A DNA stretch of 32,740 bases, from positions 1-32,740 of the forward strand of contig JAGXAO010000013.1 in assembly GCA_018971565.1 (NCBI GenBank), given 5' to 3'. Under the pieces are notes generated by a model. It was not told where the DNA came from, searched no databases, and worked only from the letters and a program-made list of their open reading frames with translations. Position numbers and translations under genes: made by a program. Position 1 is the stretch's first letter; the number at the start of each line of letters is the position of its first letter. Of this stretch, positions 10,337 to 32,740 are shown piece after piece. Source of the stretch: Rhodospirillales bacterium (GTDB lineage Bacteria > Pseudomonadota > Alphaproteobacteria > Acetobacterales > Acetobacteraceae).

Positions 10337-10522
10337 GCCACCTACCTCCAGAAATGCCTTGGCCAGACATTCAGTTCCGGCCCCGCTCCATTCATGCAGC
10401 ATTATTTGCTTATACTGCGATAATTTTGCCACAGTCGCCAAGCTTTAAATTTTAGACATGCCTGCGTCACGCCCTCCGCAACCTGCTTGCATCCGCTTTT
10501 CGCCCATGCGAAACCGCGCCAT

Positions 10523-10590
10523 CTTCACGTAACTGGCGCTCAGATGGCTACCATCGGGGAGCGTGAAGAAAGCCGCCGCGCGCCTGGGCA
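10523..10590 (+). promoter_or_regulatory. ZTP/ZMP riboswitch (pfl motif) in the purH leader
   Basis: The architecture of the pfl RNA can be drawn by hand. P1 is CTTCACG (10523-10529) with CGTGAAG (10562-10568), 7 bp. A P2 hairpin is GATGG/CCATC (10543-10547, 10551-10555). Conserved strings near consensus are GTAACTGGCG (10529-10538) and CGGGGAGCG (10555-10563). The 3' domain is GCCGCCGCGCGCCTGGGC (10572-10589), whose GCGCC (10580-10584) can form the pseudoknot with GGCGC (10535-10539), closed by a short P3 (GCC/GGC). It ends 30 bases before the purH GTG. ZTP riboswitches sense the purine intermediate ZMP/ZTP, and PurH consumes ZMP, so the context fits exactly. No terminator hairpin follows; control of translation through the ACGGAG site is more likely. 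Confidence 0.87.
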
Positions 10591-10618
10591 TCGCAATATC
10601 GCATTACGGAGCCGCCTT

Positions 10619-28836: not shown

Positions 28837-30669
28837 TCAGATTTCTTCAAGCCCGGTTGCACCTGAGCGCGCGCGGGTCAAAAGCTCGTTATAGCGCATC
28901 AGCCGGTCACAGGCGGCACGGTCGTCGGGGTTGGCAAGCCACAGCGCCTGGGCTTCGTCACGCTGCGTCCGCAACATGTCGATGCTGAAATCCATCAATT
29001 CATACAAGCTCCACCAGTTCCGCGCGGCTTCAGCCGGGCTAGCACCCGGCGCCAGGCGGAATTCCGCCCGCGTCTGCTCCTGCAGCGCGCGGGCCTGGCC
29101 ACCCAGGCCGAGGCTGTCGAGATGGGTGAACAGGGAGGACGTGTCAAGGGTTTTGGCCCGCGAAACGAAACCATGCAGCGCCTGCCGCAGCGGTTCGTCC
29201 GCCACTGGAAGCCGGACATGGGAATAGGCTTCATCCACATCCGGAAGCAGCGTCGGGAAAGCCAGCAAAACCGACAGCATGAGCCGCGCACGGCGGAACT
29301 GCGCAGCCTCAACATCCGGGGCTGTACGCGGCGGAATTGGCACAGGCGGTGGCGCCGGAACAAAACGGCCTTGTGAATTTTTAATCCATTGGCTGCGCTC
29401 TGATTTGGCCCTGCCTGATTTATCTTTAGGATTATATTGGTTTTTCAGTAAGTTATAATATTCTGTGGATAGCACTTTGTTCGGAATGCTATTCGCGGCC
29501 GCGGCCAACCGCTCCCAAAATTGCGCCCTCCCTTCGGGTGTCGAGAGATTTTGGCCCAGCTTCAACATATCGAACAAAACCGCCGAAAGCGGTCGCGCCT
29601 TGGCAAGTTCCGCTTCAAAGGCCTGGCGGCCGCCGCGCTTTATCAAACTGTCTGGGTCATCCTTGGGCGGCAGGCTCAGGAATTTCAGAGATTTTTCGGG
29701 GCTCAGCTGGGTCAGTGCCAGCTCGGCGGTTTTCAGCGCGGCGCGCTGACCCGCCCCGTCGCCATCAAAGCAGATAACCGGCTCGGGGGAGAGCTTCCAT
29801 ATCTCCTCCAGGTGCTCCTCGGTCAGCGCCGTGCCCAGCGGCGCCACGGCGCCGGTAAATCCGGCCTGGGAGAGGGCAATGACATCCATATACCCCTCGG
29901 CGATAATCATCGCCGCACCTTTCCGCACCGCGTCCCGCGCCAGATTCAGCCCATAAAGCGAGCGCCGCTTGGAGAACAAAGCCGTTTCCGGCCCGTTCAC
30001 ATATTTCGGCTGGCCATCGCCCATAATCCGCCCACCGAAGGAGATCAGCCCGCCCCGCCGGTCGCGGATGGGAAACATCACCCGGCTGAAGAACATATCC
30101 ACCGGTCCGCGCTCGCCCTGCTTCATCAGCCCGGCCTCAATCAGCTGGTCCGGCTTGATATTCTGCCCGCGCAGGGCCGCCGCCAGAGCGCCCCTGCCCT
30201 CACCAGACCAGCCGAGCTGAAACCGGCGGATGGTATCGTCCGCCAGGCCCCGCCCGCGCAGATAATCCAGGGCTGGCCTGCCCACCTCGCCCCAGAGCCA
30301 GAGCTGGTATTCCTTACAGGCTGCCTCCAGCACCTCGGCAAGCCCGGCCCGGCGCGCCTCGGCCTCGGCGGCCTGGGGGGTGGGTTTGGGTACGTCCAGC
30401 CCCGCCTGGGCGGCAAGATCCTCCACCGCCTCCATGAAGGCGGCACCCGTGCTCTTCATCACAAAGGTGATTACATCGCCATGCTCACCGCAGCCAAAGC
30501 AATGGTAATGGTCGTCATATACATAGAAAGAGGGCGTCTTTTCCCCATGAAAGGGGCAGCAGCCCTTCCAGTCCCGGCTGGAGCGGGTGAGCTTCACGCT
30601 CCGCCCAATCACCGCGGCGATCGGGGTGCGTGCCCTCAACTCATCGAGAAAATTGGCCGGAAGCGCCAT
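28837..30669 (-). CDS. dnaG: DNA primase DnaG, 610 aa
   Basis: Synthesises RNA primers at the replication fork together with the DnaB helicase. The CHC2 zinc finger is complete (Cys38, His41, Cys57, Cys60 in GCCPFHGEKTPSFYVYDDHYHCFGCGEHGD). Then come the primase N-subdomain (VMFPIRDRRGGLISFGGRIMGDGQPKYVNGPET) and the TOPRIM domain MIIAEGYMDVIALSQAG with CFDGDGAGQRAA (about 254-305). The C-terminal DnaB-interaction domain, from about 440, is weakly conserved, as usual. The ATG overlaps the yqeY stop by one base (TAATG), giving translational coupling. Length is normal for alphaproteobacteria. Confidence 0.97.
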   Translation of the reverse strand: MALPANFLDELRARTPIAAVIGRSVKLTRSSRDWKGCCPFHGEKTPSFYVYDDHYHCFGCGEHGDVITFVMKSTGAAFMEAVEDLAAQAGLDVPKPTPQAAEAEARRAGLAEVLEAACKEYQLWLWGEVGRPALDYLRGRGLADDTIRRFQLGWSGEGRGALAAALRGQNIKPDQLIEAGLMKQGERGPVDMFFSRVMFPIRDRRGGLISFGGRIMGDGQPKYVNGPETALFSKRRSLYGLNLARDAVRKGAAMIIAEGYMDVIALSQAGFTGAVAPLGTALTEEHLEEIWKLSPEPVICFDGDGAGQRAALKTAELALTQLSPEKSLKFLSLPPKDDPDSLIKRGGRQAFEAELAKARPLSAVLFDMLKLGQNLSTPEGRAQFWERLAAAANSIPNKVLSTEYYNLLKNQYNPKDKSGRAKSERSQWIKNSQGRFVPAPPPVPIPPRTAPDVEAAQFRRARLMLSVLLAFPTLLPDVDEAYSHVRLPVADEPLRQALHGFVSRAKTLDTSSLFTHLDSLGLGGQARALQEQTRAEFRLAPGASPAEAARNWWSLYELMDFSIDMLRTQRDEAQALWLANPDDRAACDRLMRYNELLTRARSGATGLEEI

Positions 30670-31127
30670 TACCCTGCCAGAGCCGCCTTCACCGCGGCCG
30701 AGGCCACCCCCATGTCCAAAGCCGCGCCGTGCTTGGCCTTCAGCGCGCCAATCACCTTGCCCATGTCCTTAGCGCTGGTGGCACCAGTAGCGGCGACGGC
30801 CTCTTTAATCGCGGCCTCCAGCGCCTCGCCTTCCAGCGTCTGGGGCAGAAACTCGGAGATCACCGCAATCTCATGCTCTTCCTTGCCCGCCAGATCCTCT
30901 CGGCCGCCCTGGCGGTACATCGCCACCGAATCCCGGCGGGATTTGATCATGGAGCGCAGCATGGAAAGAATTTCCTCATCCGGGATCTGCTCGACACCCT
31001 TCGGGCGGGCGGCGATATCCGTATCCTTCAGCTTGGCCTGGATCAGGCGCAGGGCAGAGGTACGCTCCGCGTTGCGGGCCAGCATCGATTCCTTCACGGA
31101 AGCGGTCAATTTCTCACGTAGGCTCAT
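30669..31127 (-). CDS. GatB/YqeY domain-containing protein, 152 aa
   Basis: A YqeY-family protein that shares a helical tRNA-binding-like domain with the tail of the GatB amidotransferase; free-standing members have no firmly known function. Characteristic pieces are the start SLREKLTASVKESMLARNAERTSALRLIQAKLKD, then DEEILSMLRSMIKSRRDSVAMYRQGGREDLAGKEEHEIAVISEFLP and the C-terminal TGATSAKDMGKVIGALKAKHGAALDMGVASAAVKAAL. GGAGA precedes the ATG at 31127 at good spacing. It leads the dnaG-rpoD operon, in the place that rpsU holds in E. coli, and is divergent from carA. Confidence 0.93.
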   Translation of the reverse strand: MSLREKLTASVKESMLARNAERTSALRLIQAKLKDTDIAARPKGVEQIPDEEILSMLRSMIKSRRDSVAMYRQGGREDLAGKEEHEIAVISEFLPQTLEGEALEAAIKEAVAATGATSAKDMGKVIGALKAKHGAALDMGVASAAVKAALAG

Positions 31128-31143: not shown

Positions 31144-31199
31144 CCGGAAAAAATTTCCGGTGTTTATATAGTATCGTTGAGGCCGGAAGAAAATTCCGC
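31144..31199. promoter_or_regulatory. Two copies of CCGGAA-N5-TTCCG(G/C) in the carA / yqeY divergent promoter region
   Basis: Site 1 is CCGGAA-AAAAT-TTCCGG (31144-31160) and site 2 is CCGGAA-GAAAA-TTCCGC (31183-31199), 39 bp apart in the same layout. Between them lies the AT-rich core TTTATATAGTAT (31163-31174). Leftward, TATATA with a weak TTTTCT -35 could serve yqeY, with site 1 near the transcript start. Rightward, TTGAGG (31177-31182) and TAGAGA (31200-31205) could serve carA, with site 2 exactly filling the 17-bp spacer. Both promoter calls are weak; the paired palindromes are direct observation. Confidence 0.7.
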
Positions 31200-31212
31200 T
31201 AGAGAGGTTACC

Positions 31213-32541
31213 ATGCACACGCCCATCGATGAAATCCTGCGCCGCCTCGGCGGCAACGAGGCTGCCGCCACCCTCACCGGCGTCTCTCCTGAAGCCGTCC
31301 GCAAATGGCGCAGCGCCGGGTCCATCCCGCCGCGCCACTGGCCCGCCATTATGGCCGCAACCGGCCTGGCTTGGGAAGATTTTTCGGGCGTGCCGGAGGG
31401 CACCGAAGCACCGCCGGGCGCCACCGCCGCCCTGGTGCTGGCCGATGGCAGCGTGTTCTGGGGCCGTGGCTTTGGCGCCTTCGGCACCACCAAGCCTTCC
31501 GAGCTGTGCTTTTCCACCGGCATGACCGGGTATCAGGAAACGCTGACCGACCCCTCCTTTGCCGGGCAGATCGTCACCTTCACCTTCCCGCATATCGGCA
31601 ATGTGGGCACGAACAAGGAAGACATGGAGGCCCCGCAGATTTTCGCGCGCGGGCTGGTGACGAAAGAGGATTTCACCGCCCCCTCCAACTATCGCGCCAC
31701 GAATAACTTCGGCGGCTGGCTGAAGAGCCTGAACATTCCCGGCATTTCCGGGGTGGATACGCGGGCACTCACCTTACGCATCCGCGACCTCGGCGCGCCC
31801 AACGCGGTGCTGGCCTACCCGGAGGATGGAAAGTTCGATTTGAAGGCGCTGGCCAAACAGGCGGCGGACTGGGCCGGGCTGGAAGGGCTGGACCTGGCCA
31901 AGGAAGTTTCCTGCACTCAGGCCTACAAATGGGCGGACGGCACCTGGAGCTGGGAGAACGGCTTCGCCGAGACCAATGGCGGCAAGCGCGTGGTGGCCAT
32001 AGATTACGGGGCCAAGCGCAACATCCTGCGCTCGCTGGCTTCCGCCGGGTGCCAGGTGACGGTGGTGCCCGCCACCCACACCGCCCAGCAGATTCTGGGG
32101 CTGGTGCCGGATGGTGTGTTTCTCTCCAATGGCCCCGGAGACCCGGCGGCGACCGCCAAATACGCCGTGCCGGTGATCCAGCAATTGATGCAGGCGGGAG
32201 TGCCGATTTTTGGCATCTGCCTTGGCCACCAGCTTCTGGCCACCGCCCTTGGCGGCAAGACCTACAAGCTGGAGCGCGGCCACCGCGGCGCCAACCAGCC
32301 GGTGAAGGACCTCACCACCGGCAAGGTGGAAATCACCTCGCAGAATCACGGCTTCGCGGTGGATGAAAAATCCCTGCCGGAAGGCGTGGAGGTGACGCAT
32401 GTCTCGCTGTTCGATGGCTCGAACGAAGGCATCCAGGCCAAGGCGAAGAAAGTGTTCTCCGTGCAGTATCACCCCGAAGCAAGCCCGGGGCCGAGCGACA
32501 GCGCCTATCTGTTCAAGCGTTTTGTTGAGCTGATGGGCTGA
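31213..32541 (+). CDS. carA: Carbamoyl-phosphate synthase small subunit with N-terminal helix-turn-helix domain, 442 aa
   Basis: The glutamine amidotransferase subunit that feeds ammonia to CarB for pyrimidine and arginine synthesis. The CarA core starts near residue 71 (TAALVLADGSVFWGRGFGAFG) and contains MTGYQETLTDPSFAGQIVTFTFPHIGNVGTN. The triad is intact: Cys336 in GICLGHQ, and His420 and Glu422 in QYHPEAS, each offset by 67 from E. coli Cys269, His353 and Glu355. Residues 1-60 (DEILRRLGGNEAAATLTGVSPEAVRKWRSAGSIPPRHWPAIMAATGL) are an added Cro/YdaS-like helix-turn-helix, absent from E. coli CarA. The ATG at 31213 has GAGAGG upstream; the frame stays open far back over dnaG, but that is antisense shadow. 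It is followed, with a TGATG overlap, by a HI0074-like gene rather than carB. Confidence 0.95.
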   Translation: MHTPIDEILRRLGGNEAAATLTGVSPEAVRKWRSAGSIPPRHWPAIMAATGLAWEDFSGVPEGTEAPPGATAALVLADGSVFWGRGFGAFGTTKPSELCFSTGMTGYQETLTDPSFAGQIVTFTFPHIGNVGTNKEDMEAPQIFARGLVTKEDFTAPSNYRATNNFGGWLKSLNIPGISGVDTRALTLRIRDLGAPNAVLAYPEDGKFDLKALAKQAADWAGLEGLDLAKEVSCTQAYKWADGTWSWENGFAETNGGKRVVAIDYGAKRNILRSLASAGCQVTVVPATHTAQQILGLVPDGVFLSNGPGDPAATAKYAVPVIQQLMQAGVPIFGICLGHQLLATALGGKTYKLERGHRGANQPVKDLTTGKVEITSQNHGFAVDEKSLPEGVEVTHVSLFDGSNEGIQAKAKKVFSVQYHPEASPGPSDSAYLFKRFVELMG

Positions 32542-32740
32542 TGATTGATCTTTCCTCCCTCAACCGCGCCTTGACCACGCTTGATGAAGCACTGGCCGCG
32601 CAGGCCCACGTGCCGGAGGATAAGCTGATCCGTGATGCCTGCATTCAGCGGTTTGAGTATAGCTACGAGCTGAGCCACAAAATGCTGCGGCGCTATCTGG
32701 AAGCCAGTGAACCGGCGGAAGTTCACCAACTCTCTTTCCC
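32541..32740 (+). CDS. Nucleotidyltransferase substrate-binding (HI0074/HEPN-like) protein, 5' part (cut by window edge)
   Basis: 66 codons are visible. The sequence MIDLSSLNRALTTLDEALAAQ, then LIRDACIQRFEYSYELSHKMLRRYLEASEP, resembles the HI0074 family (NTase_sub_bind), HEPN-fold helical proteins that pair with minimal nucleotidyltransferases such as HI0073. Such pairs act as type VII-like MNT/HEPN toxin-antitoxin modules in characterised cases. The usual R-x4-6-H catalytic motif and any partner gene lie beyond the window, so activity cannot be judged. The ATG overlaps the carA stop as TGATG, so it is translated from the carA message. No strong ribosome-binding site is visible. Confidence 0.8.
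   Translation, partial: MIDLSSLNRALTTLDEALAAQAHVPEDKLIRDACIQRFEYSYELSHKMLRRYLEASEPAEVHQLSF

Follow-up and report, generated by a model that had tools for sequence, protein, structure and literature searches.

Does an enzyme subunit that carries its own DNA-binding head read the promoter of its own gene? The question is raised by the window analyzed here (the whole stretch of 32,740 nucleotides), in which a carA gene whose product begins with a helix–turn–helix (HTH) head is preceded by two palindromes. A preliminary description proposed that CarA binds these palindromes, regulates its own gene and, through the same switch, the yqeY-dnaG-rpoD genes on the other side. Named relatives, among the best 80 of 294 matches, place the host genome within or beside Acidocella in the family Acetobacteraceae; two of these 80 records are titled Nitrosovibrio and Acidobacteriaceae, and are probably mislabelled bins.

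Results

The locus and the CarA head

The 85-bp gap between the starts of yqeY (31127, minus strand) and carA (31213, plus strand) contains both palindromes (Table 1). The two 17-mers, their spacing of 39 bp from start to start and the length of the gap are as first described, whereas the word “identical” was slightly too strong because site 1 is a perfect CCGGAA-N5-TTCCGG and site 2, ending in CCGC, has one mismatch. Promoter elements were assigned from conservation, and a scan with the sigma-70 consensus gave no match at the putative carA promoter. Since the start of carA sits 7 nt past the putative −10, its mRNA is probably leaderless.

Table 1. Features of the carA–yqeY region in the window
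Feature	Position	Strand	Evidence
yqeY, divergent neighbor ahead of dnaG and rpoD	30669..31127	-	tie to operators not conserved
Far operator (site 1), candidate	31144..31160	.	CCGGAAAAAATTTCCGG; GGA and TCC kept in 35/35 Acidocella upstreams
Putative −35 of carA, TTGAGG	31177..31182	+	TTG kept in 35/35 Acidocella and 102/141 family loci
Near operator (site 2), candidate	31183..31199	.	CCGGAAGAAAATTCCGC; fills 17-bp promoter spacer; GGA and TCC kept in 35/35 Acidocella upstreams
Putative −10 of carA, TAGAGA	31200..31205	+	TA kept in 35/35 Acidocella and 94/141 family loci; inferred
carA, carbamoyl-phosphate synthase small subunit with N-terminal HTH	31213..32541	+	TIGR01368, 454.1 bits; PF00988, PF00117
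carph-isopro HTH domain, CarA aa 5–57	31225..31383	+	NF046037, 64.5 bits (curated cut-off 38)

CarA contains both the CPSase small chain and the class-I amidotransferase domains, and its head is a member of carph-isopro (NF046037) above the cut-off, an entry that names the domain only. An AlphaFold2 model of the head (mean pLDDT 79.8) has helices at residues 5–12, 15–22, 26–35, and 40–50, of which 26–35 is the predicted recognition helix. Profile comparison with solved Cro proteins gave E values of 2.4e-4 (2hin), 0.0038 (3bd1), and 0.13 (1rzs), and the best Foldseek match was N15 Cro on operator DNA (6on0, E 4.1e-3), with none at or below 0.001. The likeness to P22/N15-type Cro is clear but modest, as the Pfam P22_Cro score of 21.8 bits falls below its cut-off of 30.2.

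Directly downstream of carA (32541–32740) there is no carB, and a frame reading MIDLSSLNRALTTLDEAL (by eye) leaves the window. The carB of the host genome is on another contig, close to its edge; three loose operator matches there are all within the coding region, with none in the 647 bases upstream. Elsewhere, carA and carB are separated by an 85-base gap (L264, L265) or by about 0.7–1 kb with differing genes (L266, L267, L268).

Conservation of the paired palindromes

All 35 Acidocella upstream regions have both palindromes, with GGA-N7-TCC invariant in each, a spacing of 38–40 bp and 11–14 nt between the near palindrome and the ATG of carA; in every one the near palindrome has TTG in front and TA behind. 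The preliminary description had called for a search before other HTH-carA genes, and across Acetobacteraceae, whose members include Acetobacter, Gluconacetobacter, Acidiphilium, and Acidocella, the palindromes did recur: among 141 distinct upstream regions (35 from Acidocella, 61 from other family genomes, and 45 named), which are mutually related so that counts are not independent trials, 141 have at least one AT-rich GGA-N7-TCC palindrome and 126 have two. One such site was found in 1.4% of control windows (n = 4268) and two in none; for shuffled sequences the figures were 1.2% and 0/7050. The 141 remained from 176 rows, all with a recognized head and helix, once rows that duplicated another over their last 120 bases were removed. 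Three loci were excluded beforehand, namely L208 and L212, where the script saw no HTH, and L218, because of its helix pattern. L218 has two sites, and longer fetches from the genomes of L208 and L212 (L353 and L354) also have two each, with a script-detected head in L354 and none in L353.

The sites are 37–41 bp apart in 106 of the 126 two-site loci and 48–50 bp apart, about one helical turn more, in 11. Clusters at 38–40 and 49–50 bp recur in several genera, and another at 44 bp comprises six loci, five of them Acetobacter. Among the 15 loci with a single site, all but one have a partner 38–41 or 49 bp away, with one mismatch in 12 and exact but less AT-rich in two; by estimate, some one-mismatch partner would be met by chance across 46 offsets in about one locus in five, and less often at these spacings. 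L187 has a single clear site. With respect to the promoter, the near site fills the conserved TTG-17-TA gap in 91 of the 141 loci, and the sites of those named Acetobacter loci that were fetched are 66–143 bp upstream.

A carA-level match was obtained in 116 of 120 family genomes searched. Most matches begin at residues 1–5 and the rest are split in two; in the sample of split matches checked, the head was located upstream. In three of the family genomes (G447, G456, and G486) the gene is cut by the contig. A class-wide search for the domain matched 115 of 385 genomes, and of 46 loci taken from these, four encode CarA, all in Acetobacteraceae.

The pair goes with the head

Comparison of carA genes with and without the head, as the preliminary description had suggested, indicates that the pair accompanies the head. 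Fourteen carA genes of other families lack the head, their matches beginning at residues 54–74, and none of the 14 has a site pair, with a single weak site in one. Within Acetobacteraceae, two small genomes of one genus (G450 and G533; loci L344 and L345) have a head-less carA that is still divergent from yqeY-dnaG, and no operator site was found in 2.5 kb at these genes. As both belong to one genus, this counts as one event of head loss. In the CarA tree they sit on a long branch beside L186, a locus with both head and sites, so that their exact place is unsure.

We also considered whether the operator might accompany all carph-isopro genes. This was ruled out, as a site was found upstream in 0 of 28 credible-head loci encoding carph-isopro proteins other than CarA outside Acetobacteraceae (42 scanned; the script found a head in 29, of which L180 looks spurious). 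In L057, L065, L074, and most of L158–L182, also outside Acetobacteraceae, the HTH domain heads a long protein that by eye resembles a coiled-coil membrane protein, with no operator site upstream in those of the loci that were scanned.

Specificity of the operator across genomes

In 12 family genomes, chosen mostly for few contigs, the exact operator TGGGAAN5TTCCCA has 13 occurrences, of which 12 precede carA; four of the 12 genomes have no exact copy, and the reversed control pattern occurs three times in the same set. For the Acidocella type, the strict 17-mer CCGGAAAWWWTTTCCGG is present in 12 of 35 carA upstream regions. The strict 15-mer CGGAAAWWWTTTCCG gave 51 sites in 26 of 38 Acidocella genomes, 18 at carA and 33 elsewhere, and none of these 33 extends to the 17-mer. 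Thus the full 17-bp operator is not, as the preliminary description had allowed might be the case, equally common genome-wide. The looser 15-mer is less exclusive to carA, and this counts against the autoregulatory reading, as does the lack of an exact TGGGAA-type copy in four of the 12 genomes. Of its off-carA copies, 32 each lie inside a frame that stays open for 171 codons or more, which is weak evidence in GC-rich DNA, and the 33rd (G000 C7, L005) lies inside a frame of 273 codons; nine of ten such frames tested carry a Pfam domain.

With up to two mismatches the window has seven motif matches against 1.95 expected, a number reached in 0 of 100 shuffles, and with up to one mismatch the host genome (2.15 Mb) has 24 sites against eight for the reversed pattern. 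The other copies in the host genome are mostly inside mechanical reading frames, with at least one (C128) between frames, so that the motif by itself is weak evidence and conservation decides. The idea of a regulon, in which the motif would mark many promoters of the host genome, was dropped for the same reason. A uvrC-like frame holds two near-matches 40 bp apart (L008 1501–1517 and 1541–1557; G000 C29:11761 and 11801).

Recognition helix and operator type

Operators are mostly of the CGGA type in Acidocella and Acidiphilium and mostly of the GGGA type in most other loci, with mixed forms between. This type is tracked by two residues of CarA, residue 25 immediately ahead of the modeled helix 26–35 and residue 34 close to its end. 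The mean fraction of G at the base before GGA is 0.87 with G25/Q34 (26 loci), 0.58 with G25/T34 (three loci), 0.44 with S25/Q34 (18 loci), and 0–0.01 with S or T at 25 and S, A, T, or H at 34 (45 loci). There are exceptions to the trend, namely L220, which combines Q34 and a CGGAA operator, and L290 and L309 (G25/Q34), whose far sites are CGGA on both sides. A formal covariation test on the CarA tree gave a sign-test p = 1 for the residue-34 class and p = 1 for residue 25. As the covariation rests on two changes of residue-34 class in the tree, it may reflect shared ancestry; that helix and operator vary together is suggestive, with too few branches for a formal test.

Discussion

Proposed mechanism

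Taken together, the sequence comparisons make it very probable that HTH-CarA regulates its own gene via the paired palindromes at carA. What the sequences show directly is that the head and the operator-like palindromes are present, that the palindromes come in pairs and strongly favor carA, and that they are missing where the head is missing. Own-promoter candidate operators co-occur with a DNA-binding domain in the encoded protein, the pattern that marks an autoregulatory enzyme at the sequence level. Binding of CarA and autoregulation, as first proposed, are well supported by sites at HTH-carA genes, by the lack of a pair where the head is lacking, and by the 12 of 13 exact copies that lie at carA.

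In the mechanism we propose, the CarA enzyme of Acetobacteraceae would carry a transcription regulator within itself. Through the Cro-like HTH at its N terminus it would bind the carA promoter, one dimer on each of the two 17-bp operators, which are spaced by about 39 bp. At most loci the near operator lies between the putative −35 and −10, where CarA would exclude RNA polymerase once bound, and plentiful CarA would then lower carA(B) expression. The signal could plausibly be free CarA or the allosteric state of CarAB (UMP, ornithine). We infer that CarA binds, that it does so as a dimer, that it represses rather than activates, and that it responds to such a signal.

A more speculative form of this proposal, possible but doubtful at present, is that CarAB itself is the sensor, with pairs of heads in (CarA-CarB)4 bridging operators 39 bp apart and the UMP or ornithine state tuning DNA binding. 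If so, enzyme allostery and transcription control would be a single event in one protein throughout the whole family.

Alternative explanations

A conserved link to yqeY-dnaG-rpoD found no support. A bidirectional switch, with a selected role in linking carbamoyl-phosphate synthesis to these genes, would fit site 1 lying 16 bp in front of the yqeY start and the gene order, as yqeY is divergent upstream of carA in all 35 Acidocella (gaps of 77–143 bp) and stands beside carA in 71 of 80 named loci (the best 80 of 294 matches). However, all nine named loci without yqeY found beside carA still have at least one site at carA. In seven of these nine genomes yqeY is located elsewhere, and none of the seven separated genes shows a site in the 300 bp before it (132 bases in one case); the other two genomes gave no yqeY match, and their dnaG is still close to carA. 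How far the far site lies from yqeY also varies widely. The sites therefore appear to go with carA and not with yqeY, and selection for a bidirectional role is unlikely, although in Acidocella, where the gene order is kept throughout, site 1 may have an effect on yqeY.

Could the palindromes serve carA through something other than a repressing CarA? A separate transcription factor encoded elsewhere might bind them and control carA, given that the case for CarA as the binder is drawn from sequence. We consider this very improbable, as nearly all exact operators in the 12 family genomes lie at carA, the pair occurs where CarA has the head and is missing where CarA lacks it, even inside Acetobacteraceae, and the outer base of the operator tracks the CarA recognition helix, if over few branches. 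It is hardly credible that the palindromes act as core promoter elements or form RNA structures (a terminator or leader hairpin) in place of serving as protein operators: site 1 scores as terminator-like and site 2 sits between the conserved TTG and TA, but there are two like copies at near-constant spacing, their placement relative to the start shifts between loci while the palindromes stay, and no pair occurs at head-less carA. Rfam models at gathering scores gave nothing at the palindromes. The reading of site 1 as a terminator was rejected because of this pairing and placement. As to direction, a dimer bound in the spacer between −35 and −10 usually blocks RNA polymerase. Autorepression by CarA is thus the likelier direction, because the near site usually fills the TTG–TA gap (91/141 loci), and the same placement makes it improbable that HTH-CarA binds these sites to activate transcription, an option in keeping with loci whose sites are farther upstream, such as those of Acetobacter.

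Relation to known systems

PutA and BirA are metabolic enzymes with their own DNA-binding domain that regulate their own gene, the domain of PutA being a ribbon–helix–helix. HTH-CarA differs from both in its domain and in its pathway, being a subunit of carbamoyl-phosphate synthase. In E. coli, carAB is controlled by several separate proteins, among them PepA, an enzyme that represses its transcription (PMC6245113). PepA is an aminopeptidase unrelated to CarA; it lacks a canonical DNA-binding motif and deforms some 230 bp of DNA, whereas here CarA itself bears the HTH head. The head resembles P22/N15-type Cro in HTH fold and sequence, and the candidate sites are palindromes of similar length to Cro operators, which in PY54 are palindromic and 16–18 bp long (PMC4488713). 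In contrast to these Cro proteins, the head is fused to a biosynthetic enzyme, with candidate operators at the promoter of that enzyme. In the open-licence literature, we found no paper on the carph-isopro domain under its names, and none, by title or start of the abstract, describing HTH-CarA autoregulation or its operators.

In Acetobacteraceae, then, the regulator of carA seems to be part of the enzyme subunit and to have an operator pair of its own. HTH-CarA would offer a compact and testable case of an enzyme reading its own promoter, and the natural variants of helix and operator are material for a recognition code of Cro-like proteins. Elsewhere in the window, a ZMP/ZTP riboswitch is present at 10519–10596 on the plus strand (53.7 bits against a cut-off of 39).
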